This document shows positions 2,942-24,095 of a DNA stretch of 24,203 bases, in pieces. Made by a program: the position numbers and the translations under genes. The notes under the pieces were generated by a model. That model worked only from the letters and a program-made list of their open reading frames with translations. It was not told where the DNA came from and searched no databases. The stretch is from a virus. The number at the start of each line of letters is the position of its first letter. Positions within the stretch are counted from its first letter, which is position 1. The DNA lies in the IMG/VR virus record IMGVR_UViG_3300030380_000138, positions 1-24,203 of that record. One strand, written 5' to 3'.

Positions 2942-3201
2942 TGGACGTAGTGGCTCTTATAGAAAAGTTTGGTTTTGCTACTGTTATGGTTATAGGATTG
3001 GGGTATTTTGTTTATTACGTTTGGATAACAATTACTAAAACAGTTGAGCCTGCCGTAAGCGAAATGCAAAAAACTATAATAAGGCTTACCGATCAACTTC
3101 GCCTGTTAGACCAAGATATGATACGATTACAACAAAAAGTTAATACGGTTTTAGAATTAAATGAAAAGAAAAATAACACAAGAAGAAATCGAAAAAGATA
3201 A
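2941..3201 (+). CDS. Small single-TM protein, holin/BhlA-like, second of a tandem pair
   Basis: The 86-residue product has a membrane helix at about residues 10-33 (GFATVMVIGLGYFVYYVWITI) and a coiled-coil tail (TIIRLTDQLRLLDQDMIRLQQKVNTVLEL) that ends in a strongly basic stretch (KKNNTRRNRKR). Pattern matches to the preceding gene point to paralogy. The basic tail is encoded by the 41 bases (3161-3201) that also encode the start of the CsgF homologue in another frame. Likely a membrane/holin-type component; exact role unknown. Confidence 0.65.
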   Translation: MDVVALIEKFGFATVMVIGLGYFVYYVWITITKTVEPAVSEMQKTIIRLTDQLRLLDQDMIRLQQKVNTVLELNEKKNNTRRNRKR

Positions 3202-3658
3202 TCTTATAAAAATTGTAGCCATAATAGGAACTATATTATTTATTGGTATTTTTGTTCAAAATGTTGTAGCAGATACTATAACTCATAAGTTTAAATCTCC
3301 TAGTTTTAATGGCATAGGAACATCCAGTCATTACCTCACTATAGAAAACCAACAATATACTCGTAAGCTTACGATTAAAGAAGAAATTAAAGCTTTACAA
3401 GAAGAAATAGAAAGAGAAAAAGAAAACTCTACTCTTGCAAGGTTTATGCGTAATCTTGAGTCTAGGGTTTACGCAGAATTATCAAGACAGTTAGTTAATA
3501 ACTTATTCGGAGAAACACCGCAGAGCGAAGGTGTCATCACTTTAGAGGGCAATACGATTGAATATACAAGTGATGGTGTAACTTTAACACTAAAAATAAC
3601 CGAGGCAGATGGTACAATCACTCAAATCGTTATCCCTATTGGTACTTTTACTTTCTAG
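3161..3658 (+). CDS. csgF: CsgF-like curli assembly factor
   Basis: The 165-residue product has a hydrophobic export signal (residues about 17-36) ending near VVA, so the mature protein should begin DTITHKFKSPSFNG. This lines up with the mature start of E. coli CsgF (GTMTFQFRNPNFGG), the segment that plugs into the CsgG pore. Later blocks also align: LESRVYAELSRQLVNNLFG with the CsgF helix, and residues 133-160, where NTIEYTSDGVTLTL is followed by TQIVIP, with its C-terminal beta domain. It is longer than E. coli CsgF (about 138 residues) because of an inserted Glu/Lys-rich helix (residues about 70-90). In curli systems CsgF sits on the extracellular face of CsgG and couples secretion to fibre nucleation. 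It overlaps the upstream gene by 41 bp and csgG by 50 bp. Confidence 0.85.
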   Translation: MKRKITQEEIEKDNLIKIVAIIGTILFIGIFVQNVVADTITHKFKSPSFNGIGTSSHYLTIENQQYTRKLTIKEEIKALQEEIEREKENSTLARFMRNLESRVYAELSRQLVNNLFGETPQSEGVITLEGNTIEYTSDGVTLTLKITEADGTITQIVIPIGTFTF

Positions 3659-4511
3659 TTGTTCTATATTTGATCAATTAGAAGATACATACGAACAAAG
3701 GTTTTCTGAAGACGTAGCAACAATTCAAGACCTGCAATCAGCAGAACTTAAAAATGTTCCTTTGCCAAAGATAAGCCCTGTGGTAGCTGTGTACCCTACC
3801 TCATTTTTAGACCAAACAGGGCAACGTAAAAGCAACAGTGAGTTTGCTTTGTTTAGCACAGCTATAACCCAACAACCTAATGCTTTACTTATAAGAGCTT
3901 TAAAACATGCAGGAGACGGTAAGTTTTTTAGGGTTGTAGAAAGAGTAGGCTTAGACAATCTTACTAAAGAACGACAACTTATAAGATCAGCAAGAGAACA
4001 ATCGACCGATGAGGAAGAAAAGAAAAAAGCTTTAAGACCTTTATTATTTGCTGGTATTTTGATTGAAGGTGCAGTCATATCTTACGAAACAAATTTAGAA
4101 AGTGGTGGTGCAGGAGCCAGGTATTTAGGTATTGGTAAAAGTGTAATCTATCGAGAGGACAACATAACCATAAGTATGCGTATGGTGTCAGTTGCAACAG
4201 GCGAAGTTTTATTAGAAGTTCTAAGTCAAAAAACAATATTTAGTTATGGTAAATCAGAAGATGTATTTAGGTTTGTTGAAGCTGAAAGTCAGCTAGTAGA
4301 AATAGAACTAGGTAATGCAAGAAACGAATCATCAACGATAGCTGTAATGAAAGCTATAGAAGGAGGTGTGCTAGAAATCATTAATACTGGTTATGATCGT
4401 GGTTTCTGGATTTTACAAAATGATAACCAAGGAGTAGAATTAGATAATGAAGAAATTAAAATTGATGAGCCTGATTGTGATGCTGACTGCATCGACAATG
4501 TACGCGGCTGA
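3609..4511 (+). CDS. csgG: CsgG-like outer-membrane curli secretion pore (lipoprotein)
   Basis: The 300-residue product is a clear CsgG homologue. Residues 1-18 form a lipoprotein signal with lipobox LSSC (Cys18). Family blocks follow: DQTGQ, then FSTAI (Phe82, matching the constriction Phe of E. coli CsgG), the SGGAGARYLGIG block (Ser165-Gly176; SGGVGARYFGIG in E. coli), VSVATGEVLLEV, VFRFVEAE and YDRGFWILQN near the end. CsgG forms a nonameric beta-barrel that lets unfolded curli subunits cross the outer membrane. The E. coli protein is 277 residues; the extra length is at the acidic C-terminus and in the loop around residues 130-145. The start is fixed by the signal peptide and lies 50 bp inside csgF in another frame. 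The gene is followed directly by a curlin-like gene, which is the expected substrate. Confidence 0.95.
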   Translation: MVQSLKSLSLLVLLLSSCSIFDQLEDTYEQRFSEDVATIQDLQSAELKNVPLPKISPVVAVYPTSFLDQTGQRKSNSEFALFSTAITQQPNALLIRALKHAGDGKFFRVVERVGLDNLTKERQLIRSAREQSTDEEEKKKALRPLLFAGILIEGAVISYETNLESGGAGARYLGIGKSVIYREDNITISMRMVSVATGEVLLEVLSQKTIFSYGKSEDVFRFVEAESQLVEIELGNARNESSTIAVMKAIEGGVLEIINTGYDRGFWILQNDNQGVELDNEEIKIDEPDCDADCIDNVRG

Positions 4512-5178
4512 TAACGAAATATATGTAGATCAGTCTGGTACTGGTGCAAATATAGACCTAGAGCAACTAGGTATATCTAATATTATTGGCGGATTAAACT
4601 CAACTGCTGGCAGCGTTAATGCTTTTGATTTAGACGGAAATAGCATGACACTTGACATCAATATGATTGGTGCAACTAACAAATTTTTAGGTGATATAAA
4701 CGCTGATAACTTTACTGGTTTATATAATTTTACTGGTGGCACTAATACATTTACCATTCAAGTAGATCCAACTAACACATATAGCTCAGATGGTTCTGAT
4801 CACAACATAGCAGTCACAGGAAGTAGCAATACTTTTACTTTAAATCAAGGCACAACAGCATTAGCAGCTTCTCTTAATTTAGATTGGATTATTCAAGGCT
4901 CTAATAATACAGTTACATCGAATATTAATATTGATGGTGCTACAAACTATATGGATATAGATGGTTCTGACAACGCAGTTACTTATACAGGAACAGGTAC
5001 AAATGCATCAGCAGGTGGGTATTTTTGGTTAGATCATACTGGTGGTTCAAGAGCATTTAATATTCAACAACTGAGTACCCAAGACAATGACTGGCTTAAA
5101 ATTATATCCGTTTCTGGCACTTCTGCTTCTACTGTTTGTGTCATTCAAAACGACCAAGGTACAAGCACAAGCTGTTGA
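4447..5178 (+). CDS. Secreted curlin-like repeat protein (putative phage-encoded curli subunit)
   Basis: The 243-residue protein has a classical signal peptide (MKKLKLMSLIVMLTASTMYA, cut near Ala20/21). The mature start NEIYVDQSGTGANIDLEQ followed by LGISN resembles a curlin repeat (N-x-hydrophobic-x-x-x-Q-x-G-x-x-N). The rest is made of Asn/Gly/Thr/Ser-rich strand-turn units (GSSNTFTLNQ, GSNNTVTSNINIDGATN, GSDNAVTYTG), typical of beta-solenoid or amyloid-forming secreted proteins. Two Cys (231 and 243) flank the extreme C-terminus. It is longer and less regular than CsgA (about 150 residues). By position after csgF-csgG it is the likely exported substrate. The start lies 65 bp inside csgG, with ggag at 4431-4434. 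Identity as a true curlin is likely but the repeat register is loose. Confidence 0.75.
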   Translation: MKKLKLMSLIVMLTASTMYAADNEIYVDQSGTGANIDLEQLGISNIIGGLNSTAGSVNAFDLDGNSMTLDINMIGATNKFLGDINADNFTGLYNFTGGTNTFTIQVDPTNTYSSDGSDHNIAVTGSSNTFTLNQGTTALAASLNLDWIIQGSNNTVTSNINIDGATNYMDIDGSDNAVTYTGTGTNASAGGYFWLDHTGGSRAFNIQQLSTQDNDWLKIISVSGTSASTVCVIQNDQGTSTSC

Positions 5179-6202
5179 TATAGGAGATATATCTGAGTTA
5201 AACGGTACGGCTCAAATTGTCAGAGACAAACCTTACGAAGCTGATTTAAAGTTTGCGATACAAAGCAATGATGAAGCCATAACCAAAGATGGCCGCATGG
5301 CTATTACTTTTCTTGATGATTCTACAGTAAAACTTACAGAACATAGTCAGCTACTTATTGATGAATACATATACGATCCAGATCCAAGCAAATCAAAAAT
5401 GGCACTTACCTTTGGTCTTGGTACAGCTAGGTTTATTACAGGCAATCTAAACCGTATAGATAAACAAAACATAACTCTTAAAACACCAACAGCTAACATA
5501 GCAATACGTGGGACTGATTTTACGGCTACAGTTGATGAACTAGGGCGTAGCCTTATAATTTTGCTACCAGACGCTCTAGGGCTCTCTAGTGGAGAAATAG
5601 AGGTAGTTACTGCTATGGGAACAGTGGTGCTTAATAAACCTTATGAAGCTACCACAGTAAATGTATTTGAGTCTGCACCAACTAAACCAGTTATTTTAGA
5701 TTTAACTCTTGATCTAATTGATAATATGTTAATTGTTACACCACCTAAAGAAGAAGCTGTAATTGAAGAAGAAACTACAAGAACACAAACAGATAGCGTA
5801 TTAGATTTTAATGATCTTGATATAGATTATCTTGCAGAAGATTTTTTAAATGATGATTTAGAATTTACAGAATTAGATATTAATTATCTTGATGTAAATT
5901 ATCTTGAAGACTTGTTAAATGTATTAGATGCACTAGCTGTAGCTGAAGATGAAGATCAATTAGCACAAGCGACTAGCACTCAAATTAGTGGTACTTCTCT
6001 AGGTAAAGATGCTGAAACGCAAATAACAACTTTAATAACAGGTAATTTAGTTAGTCTTAGAAGAGAAGTAAATGAAAGCGTAAGAGTAGATTTAGATGGT
6101 AGTAATGCTTATACAGTTATTTTGATTCAAGATGGTATTTCTAATATAATCAAAGTTAATGGAGGGGGTGACAGTGTTATCACTATCACTCAGAGTGATT
6201 AA
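5087..6202 (+). CDS. Secreted FecR-domain protein with C-terminal curlin-like tail
   Basis: Residues 1-29 are a signal peptide (LALLLLLFVSF core, cut near VQAQA). Residues about 35-150 match the FecR domain: GTAQIVR, a DGRMAITFLDDSTVKLTEHS block, LGTARFITG and TPTANIAIRGTDFTATV. In FecR proteins this periplasmic domain relays a signal or binds ligand. Residues about 238-290 form an acidic, Leu-rich repeat-like stretch (LDIDYL, LDINYL, LDVNYL). The last 40 residues (SNAYTVILIQDGISNIIKVN, then GGGDSVITITQ) look like one or two curlin repeats, which suggests that it can join or nucleate the neighbouring curlin fibre. The start is 92 bp inside the curlin gene, with no clear Shine-Dalgarno; the signal peptide decides the choice. 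The next gene follows with no gap. Confidence 0.85.
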   Translation: MTGLKLYPFLALLLLLFVSFKTTKVQAQAVDIGDISELNGTAQIVRDKPYEADLKFAIQSNDEAITKDGRMAITFLDDSTVKLTEHSQLLIDEYIYDPDPSKSKMALTFGLGTARFITGNLNRIDKQNITLKTPTANIAIRGTDFTATVDELGRSLIILLPDALGLSSGEIEVVTAMGTVVLNKPYEATTVNVFESAPTKPVILDLTLDLIDNMLIVTPPKEEAVIEEETTRTQTDSVLDFNDLDIDYLAEDFLNDDLEFTELDINYLDVNYLEDLLNVLDALAVAEDEDQLAQATSTQISGTSLGKDAETQITTLITGNLVSLRREVNESVRVDLDGSNAYTVILIQDGISNIIKVNGGGDSVITITQSD

Positions 6203-7957
6203 ATGAAACGACTATTATTACCTGTAGTTATAATACTATCTTTACCATTATTGTTTCAAACCACTCCAACAGAAATACTTAAATTAAAGGTGTTTGATGC
6301 TTTAATACAAACACCCCAAGAATCAGGTAATTTTGTTATACTTAATATAACAGAAGAAGATGTAGAGCGAGAAGGTGGTTATCCATTACCAAGACAAAGA
6401 CTTGCAGAAATACAAATAGATTTAATTAATGAGGGTGCTGTAGGAGTAGGTTGGGTCATATCTTTTCCACAAGCAGACCGAATGGGTGGTGATGAAATGT
6501 TTGCAGAAGCATTAAGTTATTCACCTTCTGTAATAGCAATGTTTGAAGATGGTAAGGGTAATTTTCCTTTATCACCTGGAACAGTTGTCATGGGTAATGA
6601 TAATGGTGGTATACTTAGTTTGGGAGTAAAGGAAAACCTACCTCTTTTATCCAATAACACTTTACAGGGTTTAGCCATTGCTCCCACTGATGTAGATCAA
6701 CTTGTAAGAAGAATACCTCTTTTAGTAAAAACACCTAACAATGATTGGATTCCTAGTTTTGGAACGCAAATATATAAATCTTTATTTGATGTAAAAACTT
6801 ACATTATAAAAACTAATGATAATGGTATAGAAGAAATATCAATAAGAGGAATACCACCCGTTAAAACAGATAGCCTTGGTCGTAAGTGGATTAGTTGGGT
6901 TGATACTCCACAAACAGATTTAAAAGAAATGGATGTTGCTGGCAAGTTTGTATTCGTAGGTGTTACTGCTAACGGGGTGATGCCGCAAATTTCCACGCCT
7001 GTCGGTTTGTTAGAACCACATAAAATACAAACAGCACTAGCAGAATCAATACTTATACAAGATAGTCCTTATATACCTGACTGGTCTTTAGCTGCTGAAC
7101 TAATGATGCTTATTGTATTTGTTAGTTTGGTTTGGGTTGCACTTCATTACTTAGGAATTACTTGGGGTATTACTGTTGCAACCATGTTAATGATTACTAC
7201 TGGCGGTTTAGGATATTACCTTATAAGTAAAGGGTTGTTGGTAGATGTATCTTGGACACTTATATCAGAGTTTATTTCAGGATCTATAGCTTTCTATTTA
7301 AGGTTTAGGCAACAATACAAACTGCGTCAACAGATCAAGAAACAGTTTGAACATTACCTTGATCCACGCCAAGTTAAAAAACTACAAGATGATCCTAGTT
7401 CTTTAGTGCTAGGTGGTGAACGTAGATACTGCACGTTTCTTTTTACTGATGTACGTGGGTTTACTGCTATGTCTGAAAAATTAGAACCTGAACAAGTTAC
7501 AGAAATTATGAATCAAGCTCTTACAATACAAGCTAATGCAGTAAAAGAGTATGGTGGTATGGTTGATAAATATATAGGCGATGCAATGATGGCCATATTT
7601 AATGCACCTATAGACTTACCAAATCATGAAACCGCTGCGGTTTTTTGTGCAAAAGAAATACAAGAAAAAATAAAACAAGCTGATATTAATGTAGAAATAG
7701 GAGTAGGTGTTAATACTGGATACGCTGTTGTAGGCAATATGGGTAGCGATACAAGGTTTGATTACACAGCCATAGGTGATGCAGTAAACCTTGCGGCTAG
7801 ACTTGAAAGCTCTACTAAGGAAGTTGGAGAAGATATTGTTATAGGTTATGATACTGTTAGTGCAAACAACTTTAACGATCAAATTGTTTTAAAAGAGTTG
7901 AAAAGCATTAAAGTTAAAGGAAAAGAAAAATCTGTAAATATTTATACAATTATATGA
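6203..7957 (+). CDS. CHASE2-domain class III adenylyl cyclase
   Basis: The 584-residue membrane protein has an N-terminal TM helix (1-20), a periplasmic CHASE2 sensor region (about 22-290), three TM helices (about 297-316, 321-341, 348-367), a linker (HYLDPRQVKKL) and a class III nucleotide cyclase domain (about 405-584). Catalytic features are complete: metal-binding Asp416 (FTDVRGFT) and Asp460 (KYIGDAMMA), and transition-state Asn529 and Arg533 (GDAVNLAARLE). Lys456 with Thr522 at the purine-selecting positions matches the Lys/Thr pair of bacterial adenylyl cyclases, so cAMP is the predicted product. FecR-domain and CHASE2-cyclase genes are often neighbours in bacteria, to my knowledge, which supports capture as a unit. 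ATG follows the FecR stop directly; its own stop overlaps the next start (ATGA). Confidence 0.95.
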   Translation: MKRLLLPVVIILSLPLLFQTTPTEILKLKVFDALIQTPQESGNFVILNITEEDVEREGGYPLPRQRLAEIQIDLINEGAVGVGWVISFPQADRMGGDEMFAEALSYSPSVIAMFEDGKGNFPLSPGTVVMGNDNGGILSLGVKENLPLLSNNTLQGLAIAPTDVDQLVRRIPLLVKTPNNDWIPSFGTQIYKSLFDVKTYIIKTNDNGIEEISIRGIPPVKTDSLGRKWISWVDTPQTDLKEMDVAGKFVFVGVTANGVMPQISTPVGLLEPHKIQTALAESILIQDSPYIPDWSLAAELMMLIVFVSLVWVALHYLGITWGITVATMLMITTGGLGYYLISKGLLVDVSWTLISEFISGSIAFYLRFRQQYKLRQQIKKQFEHYLDPRQVKKLQDDPSSLVLGGERRYCTFLFTDVRGFTAMSEKLEPEQVTEIMNQALTIQANAVKEYGGMVDKYIGDAMMAIFNAPIDLPNHETAAVFCAKEIQEKIKQADINVEIGVGVNTGYAVVGNMGSDTRFDYTAIGDAVNLAARLESSTKEVGEDIVIGYDTVSANNFNDQIVLKELKSIKVKGKEKSVNIYTII

Positions 7958-20247: not shown

Positions 20248-20577
20248 TTGTATAACAAGTATGGAGCAAAAAAAGTAAGACAAGACGGTTACACTTTCGA
20301 TAGCAAACTAGAGGCAGCTAGATACAATCATCTTAAAGAACTAGAAGAACAAGGCCTAATCTCTGACATAGAAGTGCACCCACCTTTCCCATGTGTAGTT
20401 AATGACAAGAAAGTATGTCTTTACAAGGCTGACTTTAAATACAAGAACATCAATGGCGATGAGATCATAGAAGATACCAAAGGTATGCAGACTCCCATGT
20501 TTAGATTAAAAAAGAAACTTGTTGAGGCTTTATATCCTGATGTTGAAATTATGGTTATAAGTAAAGCCAAAGCCTAG
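20248..20577 (+). CDS. DUF1064-type PD-(D/E)XK nuclease-like protein (TTG start)
   Basis: The 109-residue protein begins YNKYGAKKVRQDGYTFDSKL and matches the small phage family DUF1064, thought to be a PD-(D/E)XK nuclease or Holliday-junction-resolvase-like enzyme. Candidate active-site residues are Glu22 (SKLEAARY), Asp62 (YKADFKY), and Asp76-x-Lys78 (EDTKG), in the usual E...D...(D/E)xK order. The start is TTG at 20248, chosen because a perfect aggagg (20234-20239) sits 8 bases upstream and no ATG precedes YNKYG. It is the last gene of the rightward block and its stop shares CTAG with the opposing nuclease gene. A role in resolving branched DNA before packaging would fit. Confidence 0.8.
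   Translation: MYNKYGAKKVRQDGYTFDSKLEAARYNHLKELEEQGLISDIEVHPPFPCVVNDKKVCLYKADFKYKNINGDEIIEDTKGMQTPMFRLKKKLVEALYPDVEIMVISKAKA
20574..20577. other. Convergent gene ends sharing CTAG
   Basis: The palindrome CTAG provides TAG for the rightward DUF1064 gene (20575-20577) and TAG for the leftward exonuclease (20574-20576). The rightward and leftward blocks therefore meet with a 4-bp overlap and no space for a terminator between them. Confidence 0.9.
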
Positions 20578-21653
20578 AAAGGCACACCTGTTTCAACCCA
20601 AGGTCTTATACTAGATATTTTTCCATTCAAAAGCTTTCTAACATTCTCACACTGAACAATCATTTCTTTTGGAAAGTTACTGTTGACTATCTCTATCAGC
20701 TCCTCACTAGAATAAAAATTATCTCCTGTAGATTGTTTGTTTTTAGCTACATTGACAAACCTAAAGTCATCTTTTTCGTAGACTACAAAGGTATCATCAA
20801 CTTGTAATACTTTAGCTGGTATTAGTTCAGGTATGTAGTTGTGGTTTGCACAACCTGTGGTTTGTCTTTCTTTGCTTATCACTCTATTGTCTTGAGAACA
20901 AACCCACTCGCCTGTTTCAATATCTGGATTAGAAAAACGACAAGACCTACAATGTAGTTTCTCAGGCAAAGACCTACCAAGATATGCGGCCTGTTGTTTC
21001 TTTGACATGTAGCTACGTATCCTGTAGTCAGTCAATGGTATGTGATTCTCTGGTGGTGTTTTGGTCTTTAATATATTTTCAGCTTTGTCCATAAACATTT
21101 CAAACTTTAAGTAATCAAAGTCGATAACTTCTGTATATAAAGCAGAGTTGTTCTTGTTATAAACAATAGCTATGCAATGATCTAGTTTAAACAATCCCAT
21201 ATACAAATGGATCTGTGCATCATACTCCTCTGACCAATTACAATAGCTACCTAGTTTTTCTAGCTTGTTAAAACGATTGTCGTTAGCTGTTTTAAACTCT
21301 AGTAGGTATGGTTTGTTTGGTTTCAGTCCAGGTAAATTCTTAGCCACACCGTCTATGTGTCCTTTCAAATGGCCACCGAACGCTTTGGTTTCAAACTGTC
21401 TGCCGTCTTTTCTTACATCGTAGATAGTTGCACCTGGTATCTTGCGTAGCTTTTCGATTAAGTGATCCTCTACTACATTACCTAAGTCTAGCAACCTAAG
21501 AACTCTTGGCTCCCATTCATCAGGCATGAGCCAGCGGTATCTCATCCAGAGGAGCCTTTGATTAGGATTACCGATACCACTGATGCCCAAATAAAATCTT
21601 TGGTGTCTTTCAGTATTTGTTTCTACTTCATCAAGTAGATGATTGATTGTCAT
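20574..21653 (-). CDS. PD-(D/E)XK exonuclease, RecB/Cas4-like, with four-Cys cluster
   Basis: The 359-residue protein carries the RecB-family nuclease motifs: Glu62, GHIDG (Asp101), LLEFKT (Glu119, Lys121) and AQIHLY (Gln147, motif QxxxY). Downstream, four Cys (235, 238, 252, 268; C-x2-C-x13-C-x15-C) look like a metal or Fe-S site, as in Cas4/AddB-like nucleases. Such phage enzymes act as 5'-3' exonucleases in recombination or host DNA breakdown. It is the last gene of the leftward operon; ATG 21653 overlaps the preceding stop (ATGA) and follows the repeated ggagaaacaaa ribosome site. The C-terminal 90 residues (VDDTFVVYEKDDFRFV onward) have no assignment. Confidence 0.85.
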   Translation of the reverse strand: MTINHLLDEVETNTERHQRFYLGISGIGNPNQRLLWMRYRWLMPDEWEPRVLRLLDLGNVVEDHLIEKLRKIPGATIYDVRKDGRQFETKAFGGHLKGHIDGVAKNLPGLKPNKPYLLEFKTANDNRFNKLEKLGSYCNWSEEYDAQIHLYMGLFKLDHCIAIVYNKNNSALYTEVIDFDYLKFEMFMDKAENILKTKTPPENHIPLTDYRIRSYMSKKQQAAYLGRSLPEKLHCRSCRFSNPDIETGEWVCSQDNRVISKERQTTGCANHNYIPELIPAKVLQVDDTFVVYEKDDFRFVNVAKNKQSTGDNFYSSEELIEIVNSNFPKEMIVQCENVRKLLNGKISSIRPWVETGVPF

Positions 21654-21811
21654 TTTGTTTCTCCAGATATTTTTACTTTTTTAATTATTTCATCTATCAT
21701 CGTATATGCTTCATCTAATTCTACGGCTACATTTTCATCACAATATCTTAGGACTACATCACCTAATTTATCTCTAGCTTTTTTTATTTTCTTTAGTTCA
21801 GATTTGTTCAT
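21650..21811 (-). CDS. Small hypothetical protein, 53 aa
   Basis: This short ORF fills the gap between the exonuclease and the next leftward gene. Its 53-residue product (MNKSELKKIKKARDKLGDVV at the start, KVKISGETK at the end) is charged and helical with one Cys at 24 and no membrane segment. Support: ATG follows the conserved ggagaaacaaa ribosome site and overlaps the upstream stop as ATGA; its own stop overlaps the exonuclease start the same way. I do not recognise it. Confidence 0.65.
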   Translation of the reverse strand: MNKSELKKIKKARDKLGDVVLRYCDENVAVELDEAYTMIDEIIKKVKISGETK

Positions 21812-22050
21812 TTTGTTTCTCCAGGTTGGTACTCCTCTGCTATTTCTATTTCTCGTTTAATACCTCGTAATTTGACTAATAAGGACATAAACTTATCATC
21901 TTGAGGCATAACCTCTTTCTCTACTAAATCAGTCAAAACTTTAGGGCATACTTCTAATGCCTCTGCCAATAAACTTTTACTAAAGAAATATTTTTCTATT
22001 AAATGCTTTATGTCCTTACGCATTTTGATAACCTCTATTGCTTTAATCAT
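21808..22050 (-). CDS. Small hypothetical protein, possible helix-turn-helix
   Basis: The 80-residue protein is helical: MIKAIEVIKMRKDIKHLIEK, then FSKSLLAEALEVCPKVLTDL, a stretch that could be a helix-turn-helix, followed by a Lys/Arg/Glu-rich end. A DNA-binding regulator is possible but the match is weak. The first Met is preferred over Met10 because the ggagaaacaaa site lies just upstream of it. It overlaps both neighbours by ATG/stop coupling and ends in PGETK, like the following gene's SGETK, because both ends are encoded by the same ribosome-site sequence. Confidence 0.6.
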   Translation of the reverse strand: MIKAIEVIKMRKDIKHLIEKYFFSKSLLAEALEVCPKVLTDLVEKEVMPQDDKFMSLLVKLRGIKREIEIAEEYQPGETK

Positions 22051-22237
22051 TTTGTTTCTCCAAGTTGGTTATTTTATTAACTAAATCTAATATTTTTTTT
22101 CGCTGTCTTTCAATAATAGAATTATCTAATGGTTGATTACTACTTTCAGCAGCACTAATCAAATGCTGTAAGGTGTCTTTTTCATTTTGCAAACATATTT
22201 GCAAATATTGTGTTTTACTAAATGGATGTTTTTTCAC
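22043..22237 (-). CDS. Small coiled-coil hypothetical protein (GTG start)
   Basis: The 64-residue product (KKHPFSKTQYLQICLQNEKD at its start, KKILDLVNKITNLEKQND at its end) is polar and helical, with Leu/Ile spaced like a short coiled coil; no family is recognised. The start codon is GTG at 22237, overlapping the helicase stop (GTGA), with ggag and an 8-base spacer upstream. It lies between the helicase and the possible HTH gene in the leftward operon. Confidence 0.6.
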   Translation of the reverse strand: MKKHPFSKTQYLQICLQNEKDTLQHLISAAESSNQPLDNSIIERQRKKILDLVNKITNLEKQND

Positions 22238-23904
22238 AATATTATCTCCTTGTTTTGTTTTGTTTTGATCCCTATAACATTCTCATACTTGCCCTGCTTT
22301 TGTAAGACAATTTCTGATATGTTTTCAAAGGCACCGCTATTAATTAATTCAGCAGCCATCCATGGTTGCTCAGGAGCACCCCACTTATCTGCTATCTTCT
22401 TCCATCTACGAACAGCCATGTGGTGTGCTTTAGGATGTCCGAACATTAACGGCATCTTCTTTGGAAAGAACTCATCCTTAACTGTAAAGATCACTTGACA
22501 ATACTCACTGCCATTCATGGACTTAGTTACAGTTGCATAGATGTCAGTAACAGGTTTGTATCTTGGCTTGGCTTTCTTTCTCTCATCAGATAAAACAGCT
22601 TGCCTTTCTGCTTTAGTTCTTCTAGCAACTTCTTTTTCTTTTTTGGTTTGTAGTTCTTGAAACTTTTTAGATCCCTCAAACTCTTGTCCACACTCTACAC
22701 ATTTTCTAGCAGAGGGTAAATTGATCGCATTACAACTAGCACATATCTTAGGATGGTATCTTCCCGGTGCCGTACGATCTGGTTGCACCTCATCAAGACA
22801 GCCATGTCTAGCTACATTCTCTCCATAGTCTAGTAACAAACAGTTTTCTTTATCATCATGCAGTCTCATACCTCTGCCACACATTTGCACAAACAAGCCA
22901 ACGCTTTGTGTTGGTCTAAGCAAAGCCACGCAGTCTGCTCTTGGAGCATCCCAACCCTCGGTCAAGACACCAACATTACATATTGCATGCACTAAGCCGT
23001 TGTTAAATTTTTCTAGTATGTCTTCTCGTTTTTCTTTTGGTGTCTCACCTGTTACACACTCAGCTACAATTCCATAGTTCTGTAAACACTGAGTCATCTT
23101 CTCTGCGTGTAGCACTGATACACAAAAGAATACTGTAGCTGTTCTGCCTTTGGTGTAGGCGTTGTCAATCCAGTCGTTGATAACTTGTAAGATCGTATCA
23201 TCTACCATAGCTACTTTTTCTAGTTCACTCTCCTTGAAATCTCCGTTCTTAAACTTTAGTGCTACAGCTCCTGCATCAATAACAGCGTTGTCATTTACAG
23301 CATAAGCAGATAGCCTGGATAAGAAACCATTACGGATCAGTTCAGGTATTGATACCGAATAAGCCAAGCCTTTAAAAAAATGATCTTTACGATTGCCATA
23401 GATATAACCTTGACCCATACGATAAGGCGTTGCAGTGCAACCCATAACACGCATAGGCTTTCTGTCAGACAAGGTGGTTATAATTTTTTTGTATCTAGTG
23501 TGTGAACTTGGTGGCACGTTATGTGCCTCATCTATAATCATGTAATCAAAACTACCTACAGCCTCTAATCTTTTGGGCGATGCCAAAGTATCACGACTGG
23601 CTATAAGTATTTGTGAGTCTATCTCAAAGCGTTTCATACCTGCCGCTAACACACCAACAGGTGCTTTAGGCCATACTGTTTTTAATTTTGTTTCTGCTTG
23701 CTCTACCAATTCTTTTCTATGTGCCAGGACAAGAAACCTAGCAGTAGGATCTTTAGCAAATATTTCTTTAATAAAGTGTGAAAAGATAATAGTCTTACCT
23801 GCTGCCGTAGGTAATGCAATCAAGGCATGATCCTCTGCTGGTCTAGTGTTAAACCACTTGTGCAGAGAATCTATTGCATCTCTTTGGTAGTAGCGTAGTT
23901 TCAA
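22234..23904 (-). CDS. SF2 DNA helicase, RadD-like, with zinc ribbon (TTG start)
   Basis: The 556-residue protein has all superfamily 2 helicase motifs: PTAAGKT (32-38, ATP-binding), DEAH (125-128), TATP (157-160), a GVLTEGWDAP block and QMCGRGMR (340-347, Arg fingers). After the helicase core comes a four-Cys zinc ribbon (Cys388, 391, 402, 405), then a basic linker and a C-terminal domain. Size, DEAH box and zinc ribbon after the helicase core match bacterial RadD (YejH), which aids recombination intermediates. It likely drives phage replication or recombination with the downstream RecB-type nuclease. The start is TTG, overlapping the preceding stop as TTGA; no nearby ATG fits the family N-terminus (KLRYYQRDAI). 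Confidence 0.9.
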   Translation of the reverse strand: MKLRYYQRDAIDSLHKWFNTRPAEDHALIALPTAAGKTIIFSHFIKEIFAKDPTARFLVLAHRKELVEQAETKLKTVWPKAPVGVLAAGMKRFEIDSQILIASRDTLASPKRLEAVGSFDYMIIDEAHNVPPSSHTRYKKIITTLSDRKPMRVMGCTATPYRMGQGYIYGNRKDHFFKGLAYSVSIPELIRNGFLSRLSAYAVNDNAVIDAGAVALKFKNGDFKESELEKVAMVDDTILQVINDWIDNAYTKGRTATVFFCVSVLHAEKMTQCLQNYGIVAECVTGETPKEKREDILEKFNNGLVHAICNVGVLTEGWDAPRADCVALLRPTQSVGLFVQMCGRGMRLHDDKENCLLLDYGENVARHGCLDEVQPDRTAPGRYHPKICASCNAINLPSARKCVECGQEFEGSKKFQELQTKKEKEVARRTKAERQAVLSDERKKAKPRYKPVTDIYATVTKSMNGSEYCQVIFTVKDEFFPKKMPLMFGHPKAHHMAVRRWKKIADKWGAPEQPWMAAELINSGAFENISEIVLQKQGKYENVIGIKTKQNKEIIL

Positions 23905-24095
23905 TTTAATCCAAGTATTCTATAAATTTTGCTATGTTGATCCGTTCTCGTATCTACATTTAACAATAACATTTTAGCTTCCTTTACTTTGTCGTTTAAA
24001 TCAGTAGGCAAACTGTCAAAGTTTTGATCTAAAGAGTTTATTAAAGATGTCATTGATTTTATCAAGGCGTTAGCCTCTCTCTTATTTATATTCAT
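23901..24095 (-). CDS. Small hypothetical protein, first complete gene of the leftward operon
   Basis: The 64-residue protein (MNINKREANALIKSMTSLIN at the start, HSKIYRILGLN at the end) is helical and polar, with no recognised family. ATG 24095 follows a good ribosome site (ggagaaa, 5 bases before the ATG). Its TGA overlaps the helicase TTG. It is preceded by a leader with two stem-loops. Confidence 0.65.
   Translation of the reverse strand: MNINKREANALIKSMTSLINSLDQNFDSLPTDLNDKVKEAKMLLLNVDTRTDQHSKIYRILGLN

Follow-up and report, generated by a model that had tools for sequence, protein, structure and literature searches.

Integron gene cassettes are single-gene units arranged in tandem. In phage lambda, the ninR region was reportedly described by Kroger and Hobom in 1982 as a chain of interlinked genes, and the genes of ninR overlap at their start and stop codons. 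A long-standing argument concerns whether phage mosaicism is due to short boundary sequences that serve homologous recombination or to selection acting on the products of illegitimate recombination. In lambdoid phages, short conserved sequences have been described at gene borders (Clark et al. 2001, as the idea is cited in PMC2327257 and PMC3029335). In cluster K mycobacteriophages, the Start-Associated Sequences form a short repeat with a Shine-Dalgarno core, located a few bases before the starts of many unrelated non-structural genes; the role proposed for them, in the accessible part of that source, is translation initiation and not cassette exchange (PMC3203893). In T4-like phages, the PeSL cassettes carry an intergenic promoter/stem-loop motif reported to mediate modular shuffling (Arbiol 2010 and Comeau 2014, as presented in PMC4503421). 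Searches of open-licence papers showed no description of an array such as the one analyzed here.

The window, that is, the whole stretch of DNA analyzed, is a virus record of 24,203 bases with 35% G+C. On its minus strand, three small genes (64, 80 and 53 aa) separate a helicase gene from the gene for a Cas4-domain exonuclease downstream of it. The features of this region, in the direction of transcription, are the following.

22234-23904, minus strand: helicase, upstream flank; superfamily II DNA helicase (ResIII + Helicase_C)
22234-22237, minus strand: overlap GTGA of the helicase stop and the start of the first cassette, read from the sequence; the sequence upstream of it differs from the motif (AAGGAGATAATATTGTGA)
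22043-22237, minus strand: cassette 1, 64 aa; continues through the motif in a different frame and ends in the tail LEKQND
22047-22062, minus strand: motif copy 3 (third in the order of the earlier note), joining cassette 1 to cassette 2
21808-22050, minus strand: cassette 2, 80 aa, family F3; predicted to fold into four helices, its structural matches being helix-turn-helix-like
21808-21823, minus strand: motif copy 2, joining cassette 2 to cassette 3
21650-21811, minus strand: cassette 3, 53 aa; open reading frame with weak family matches at most
21650-21665, minus strand: motif copy 1, joining cassette 3 to the exonuclease gene and also providing the ribosome site and start of that gene
20574-21653, minus strand: exonuclease, downstream flank; Cas4-domain exonuclease (phrog_1990, 7.6e-57)

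The helicase was matched by Pfam (PF04851, 8.5e-27; PF00271, 9.1e-15) and by PHROGs (phrog_16 DNA helicase, 3.2e-90), and the exonuclease at 20574-21653 had no Pfam match. The earlier note had reported the same 16 bases at three leftward gene junctions, and this was confirmed: TGGAGAAACAAAATGA is present in three exact copies, at 21650-21665, 21808-21823 and 22047-22062, with no further exact copy in the window, and it is the sole 16-mer occurring three times on one strand of these 24,203 bases. Allowing up to 3 mismatches gave 4 matches, a number reached by none of 100 dinucleotide shuffles; the fourth lies at 23683-23698 with 3 mismatches. The motif contains a Shine-Dalgarno core and an A-rich spacer. 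As the note had also stated, it is read in two frames: the TGA inside the motif ends 21808-22050 (PGETK and stop) and 21650-21811 (SGETK and stop), and in the other frame, at 22043-22237, it is read as LEKQND up to a TAA stop at 22043-22045. The described extension of the second and third copies into gttggt (plus strand) is right for those copies, but one differing base comes first (ACCAACC versus ACCAACT on the minus strand).

A role of the motif as a promoter or terminator element was considered and rejected: the 7 promoter-like sites did not exceed the shuffle mean of 11.6 (host promoters may differ), no terminator-like site was found at the window joints, and these joints showed no stable fold (z-scores 0.94, 0.03 and -0.57). 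Separately, the helicase open reading frame as listed starts at a TTGA overlap (23901-23904, minus strand) with the stop of a 64-aa open reading frame at 23901-24095; stop/start overlap may thus extend upstream of the array.

The gap between the helicase end and the exonuclease start, termed site 1, was then compared in relatives. IMG/VR was searched with the exonuclease (55 loci), the helicase (best 80 of 175 matches) and the middle small gene (6 loci). From this set, 107 loci, window included, carried both the helicase end and the exonuclease start; removal of 23 second loci of the same contig left 84 contigs, and the other locus counts given here include second loci. The relatives come from metagenomes, often as short contigs, and the array was not met in any cultured phage. 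The gap ranged from a 4-nt overlap, without insert, up to 1062 nt. In this set, including the best 80 of 175 helicase matches, 49 of the 84 contigs were empty and 35 were filled. The window's own group (exonuclease at least 93% aa identical) had 15 of 16 contigs filled, with 10 architectures and the motif in 14. Two groups without any motif had 35 of 40 contigs empty, and the other five held one of two single cassettes. Two middle groups had 13 of 28 contigs empty, with the motif in 8 of the 15 filled ones. Architectures were more numerous in the motif-bearing group than in the motif-less groups, a comparison that ignores kinship. In family terms, the window array reads F25>F3>F26, and other arrays at site 1 include F0>F18, F0>F19, F10>F2 and F5>F20>F21>F2.

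When a 17-base form of the motif was searched for, at least 120 stretches matched. A relative of a known cassette was located within 300 nt of the 17-mer in 27/120 among the matches listed; for the other 93 no cassette relative was present within this distance, and the 17-mer precedes unrelated genes in other viruses. The motif recurs at the junctions of other arrays, so that this part of the refuting condition set by the earlier note does not hold; a qualification is that it also stands before unrelated genes. Several of the 27 stretches lie between a RecE-like gene (DUF3799 in Pfam, exonuclease VIII in PHROGs) and a gene that we take to be DUF3310-like (nucleotide kinase in PHROGs), and this gap was termed site 2. 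A search with the RecE-like protein (64 loci), pooled with the loci already collected, gave 59 loci with both ends, among which the gap ranged from 12 to 1609 nt. Gene content between motif copies is thus not fixed at either site, and the other part of the refuting condition does not hold either. The RecE-like gene was present in 0/11 site-1 records and in 4/4 site-2 records, and one record belonging to neither group (G010) had a weak match. Comparison of a site-1 record (G003) with a site-2 record (G021) found a relative for 30 of 58 G003 open reading frames of at least 90 aa, with a mean identity of 73%; these are therefore related phages with alternative replication genes.

Over the two sites, 71 distinct filled inserts (27 and 44) contained 154 cassettes. 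These fell into 24 families with two or more members and 12 singletons, and 10 of the 24 families occur at both sites. Families were built by single linkage, so that the counts are approximate and F0 is heterogeneous, mixing proteins with different N-termini; the identity and breakpoint tests rest on nucleotide identity and not on families. Architectures at site 2 include F1>F6, F1>F0, F1>F0>F2, F4>F3>F2>F8 and one array of seven cassettes. One site-1 cassette (L013) is 100% nucleotide identical, from start to next start, to a site-2 cassette (L301), and the window's cassette 2 is 97.9% nucleotide identical to a site-2 cassette of L127. Relatives of cassette 1 were found in L127, L139 and L184 at 49-66% aa identity. 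A cassette designated CWSC is 91.5-92.7% identical between L033 and L106, with 70.8% identity for the helicase DNA and 69.5% for the exonuclease DNA; between L033 and L104, where the cassette end differs, the identity is 79-87%. Sequence comparison thus shows that cassettes are shared between the two genomic sites and also between diverged phages, in support of lateral movement. Identical inserts were found in more than one contig (L170/L282/L283 and L292/L293/L294/L323), which argues against assembly artefacts. A third array site was observed in L149, L174, L244 and L247 (positions 69-410 in G003), where the motif recurs and some loci carry the same cassettes as well. Its neighbours are a presumed methyltransferase-like gene and MTDKVVQIEKVAQRL-type genes, and at the start of G003 the motif is found twice near the methyltransferase-like gene.

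The position at which identity is lost was analyzed for pairs of the same cassette with at least 90% nucleotide identity and similar length, a test that cannot reveal breaks inside genes. In 63 pairs with different downstream neighbours, identity was 0.84-1.0 over the last 25 bases, ATGA included, and 0.38 at the next base. In 51 pairs with different upstream neighbours, identity was 1.0 at the TGA, intermediate over the ribosome site and about background beyond -12. Without pre-selection of pairs, a junction was no more than 25 nt away, in both arrays, from 373/388 5' ends and 493/534 3' ends of shared blocks. As these counts are of non-independent events, unique breakpoints were also counted: those within 12 nt of a junction were 176/223 at the 5' side and 193/239 at the 3' side. 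In 1000 random placements, the corresponding counts averaged 35 and 36 and never exceeded 54 and 57.

Pairs of loci differing by one cassette were then considered. L285 and L288 are identical over the 348/348 nt compared, their one difference being a 220-nt cassette with an exact 17-nt repeat of the motif, AAGGAGAAACAAAATGA, at its borders; the same holds for L284, with 98.3%. Other differences of one cassette were bounded by repeats of 18 nt (L005/L016), 16 nt (L311/L338) and 15 nt (L285/L135), with 93-94% identity outside the insertion. In total, 18 pairs were explained by one insertion at 93% identity or more, 5 with exact repeats of 15-18 nt and 13 with repeats of 0-11 nt. Among 14 further comparisons, the repeat was 27 nt in 3, 8-11 nt in 2, 3-4 nt ((A)TGA) in 8 and absent in 1. 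The 27-nt repeat corresponds to the helicase 3' end and was seen in L103, L110 and L112, each compared with L104 (L103/L104 being identical at 100 of 101 positions). Combined, these results support the proposal of the earlier note that small genes were added by recombination at a portable junction: content varies, cassettes are shuffled, shared blocks end at junctions, and direct repeats of 15-18 nt bound some presence/absence pairs. Recombination over the 16 identical bases may underlie part of the cases; as most presence/absence pairs have shorter repeats (13/18 with 0-11 nt, 9/14 with 0-4 nt), it is not the sole route.

These short repeats favour a reading that we judge unlikely and yet the most serious of the alternatives, namely that recombination is random (illegitimate, or relying on very short homology) and that selection retains crossovers keeping start, stop and ribosome site, the motif being a by-product of cassettes that carry their ribosome site. 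Reading frames across the joint bear on it from both sides. Among 91 motif junctions (up to 1 mismatch), the upstream gene ends on the TGA of ATGA in 26, continues for a further 4-19 bases in 55 and stops earlier in 10. In 26 pairs that read on, identity was 0.94 before ATGA, 0.46 over +4 to +10 and 0.32 over +11 to +24. The last residues of such a cassette are therefore written by its neighbour, as seen in the tails LEKQND, LEKQNET, LEKQNDNQSPT and LEKQNESD. Selection for intact genes would place the break after the stop, and the loss of identity from ATGA onwards, changing the tail, thus counts against a reading based on selection only. However, 23 motif-less pairs from 3 families break at ATGA as well (0.92 before it, then 0.47 and 0.30), in favour of random recombination with selection, and junction-precise exchange therefore occurs without the 16-mer. 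Also against this alternative, L285 and L288, a pair without any other difference, are bounded by 17 identical bases, and the motif-bearing group has more architectures than the motif-less ones, with the reservation on kinship given above.

A second alternative, very improbable in our estimation, holds that the motif is simply the favourite ribosome site of this phage group, repeated because it is effective and without a role in recombination. The Shine-Dalgarno core, the A-rich spacer and the 93/120 matches listed without a cassette relative nearby are in its favour. Its placement in these phages is against it. With up to 1 mismatch, the motif precedes 60/83 internal junctions, 31/71 last junctions and 9/71 first junctions, the majority bases at internal junctions being GGAGAAACAAAATGA, but it precedes 0/306 of the other open reading frames in these loci, a control limited to frames of 100 aa or more. 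The rarity of the motif at first junctions, for its part, speaks against the exchange model proposed below. Whole records, 20 in number, contain 0-5 motif matches each, with 12/20 having any and a few matches, at 1 mismatch, lying outside the arrays studied; the reversed pattern used as control gave 0 matches in the same 20 records. In addition, single-cassette insertions are bounded by the motif. A plain preferred ribosome site was rejected for these phages on the 0/306 count, though the motif is generic elsewhere. Insertion of cassettes at the motif by a site-specific recombinase or an integron-like integrase, suggested by the tandem single-gene cassettes with their common junction, by arrays that are one cassette apart and by a resolvase in 1/16 records, is hardly credible and was rejected, since PF00589 tyrosine integrase was found in 0/16 records (control 14/14) and PF00239 in 1/16, in records that may be partial, the window joints have no stable structure, and other joints are used too, such as the 27-nt repeat of the helicase end.

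Two further observations concern the motif within coding sequence. In the third cassette of the site-1 array of L013, the ATGA of the motif is changed to ATAA, and two cassettes form one protein of 160 aa across the joint. In L018 (5583-5855), and also in L011 (5583-5855) and L004 (354-797), motif-derived copies are found 48 bases apart inside one cassette and are read as LEKQIDSDWLQMQENILEKQN, the first copy of this L018-type pair being altered at its end. The joint also seems to duplicate as a coding tail.

Among the cargo proteins, cassette 2 is predicted to form four helices (AlphaFold mean pLDDT 90.9). Its best structural matches (Foldseek, PDB) include antitoxins, regulators of the helix-turn-helix type and a designed DNA-binding protein, but none is strong, the best E being 0.2; against viral models the best E was 0.028. 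Cassette 3 had no Pfam match above the cut-off and weak PHROGs matches of unknown function. For the other cassettes tried with Pfam and PHROGs, family matches were weak or none, F15 giving weak matches to Arc-like repressors; the predicted structure of F2 was poor (pLDDT 70). F0 and F3 had no match among 50,697 phage records.

A host was sought by scanning contigs of cellular genomes for the helicase, an approach abandoned after 11 distant matches only (26-31% aa). No terminase was identified in the window; that of G003 is 59-62% aa identical to those of HTVC027P, HTVC023P and 023Pt_psg01 and 61% to that of DSL-LC04, whose host is given as Gammaproteobacteria. A Pelagibacter-type host is therefore plausible, but no more than that. 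None of the flank proteins had a named relative above 60%, and in HTVC027P (first 50 kb of 57.6) a single motif match with 2 mismatches was found, as chance predicts. Elsewhere in the window, 7-1065 on the plus strand encodes a tail-fibre-like protein of repeated TAVG/NTTA units, the C-terminal end of which we take to be an S74-type self-cleaving chaperone. Genes resembling the curli secretion (T8SS) module of pelagiphages occupy 3161-7957 on the plus strand.

3609-4511, plus strand: presumed CsgG-like lipoprotein
5087-6202, plus strand: presumed FecR-like protein
6203-7957, plus strand: adenylate cyclase, 36.5% aa identical to the HTVC008M cyclase

The CsgG and FecR labels at 3609-4511 and 5087-6202 are assumptions of ours, and PHROGs gives no function for these genes. 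Transfer of the curli module between pelagiphages has been discussed by Wittmers et al. 2022, whose main text contains none of the terms cassette, hypervariable and small genes (PMC9599517).

We consider it likely that the array, which lies in a marine tailed phage, is made of mini-gene cassettes with coupled translation, and that these are exchanged by recombination at a joint serving at once as ribosome site, stop and start. The unit, its boundaries, its gain and loss and its reshuffling are shown by comparison of the nucleotide sequences. One unit would run from TGA to RTGA, as a small gene that provides, in its last bases, the ribosome site for the gene after it; in the terminal RTGA, the next start codon would overlap the unit's own stop in one of the frames. 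With the same 15-18 bases at each joint, a cassette could be removed, added or swapped between joints without breaking the translation of its neighbours. Homologous pairing at the joint would drive many exchanges in motif-bearing phages. During co-infection, a Sak4-like annealing protein, an SSB-like protein and the exonuclease, all encoded by the phages, would carry out the exchange, and the cargo may be small proteins directed at the host or at rivals, one of them with a predicted helix-turn-helix-like fold.

An AAA_24 protein was found in 14/16 records. It is Sak4-like (phrog_124) in both records tested and has an SSB-like gene (phrog_378) beside it; for this gene, in one of these records, a family of unknown function scores best and the SSB family ranks second. 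The window itself ends about 300 bases upstream of the helicase, before the Sak4 region. Sak4 of phage HK620 is described as annealing single strands and as being stimulated by its SSB (PMC5928155), and RecET is cited as recombining sequences of 5-13 bp at low frequency (PMC2327257). Exchange probably proceeds via the Sak4/SSB annealing system, Sak4 being assigned from gene neighbourhood. More tentatively, and with slightly less than even confidence, we propose that a deck of mini-genes is shared within a population of ocean phages whose members carry alternative replication modules. An identical joint of 15-18 nt would have evolved there as an adaptor combining recombination site, ribosome site, stop and start. 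In co-infected cells, the phages' annealing machinery would then recombine single cassettes, and even the protein tails that the neighbouring gene writes.

In these arrays, nature has produced a series of gained and lost cassettes around a recurring joint. The joint is read in two frames, which helps to tell selection from DNA homology, and the motif is present in some lineages and absent from others; the question of the origin of mosaicism therefore becomes directly testable. The pool of small phage proteins with fast turnover is also a good place to seek host take-over or counter-defence functions. Compared with known systems, the array shares with integrons the tandem arrangement of single-gene units, but its joint is a ribosome site and start instead of a recombination hairpin, and the tyrosine integrase is lacking from the 16 records as given above. 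It shares with PeSL cassettes a regulatory motif at gene borders tied to modular shuffling; in the accessible part of that account PeSL is an early promoter with a stem-loop, whereas the joint of the array has neither intergenic space nor a stable stem (PMC4503421). Like the Start-Associated Sequences, the motif lies within a few bases of the start codons of non-structural genes, but their 13-bp consensus, GGGATAGGAGCCC in the part of the source available, is not matched by the majority sequence GGAGAAACAAAATGA of the array (PMC3203893). A short conserved sequence at the borders of exchanged modules is common to the array and the lambdoid phages, in which it is proposed to let homologous recombination swap the modules, as it may do in the array; overlap of start and stop is also common to the array and the ninR genes. 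As far as the lambdoid side is known through citing papers, the array differs from it in that its joint is one stop-ribosome-site-start sequence of 15-18 nt, common to many unrelated mini-genes at two sites, and in that it displays pairs differing by the presence or absence of one cassette, together with protein tails written by the neighbouring gene.
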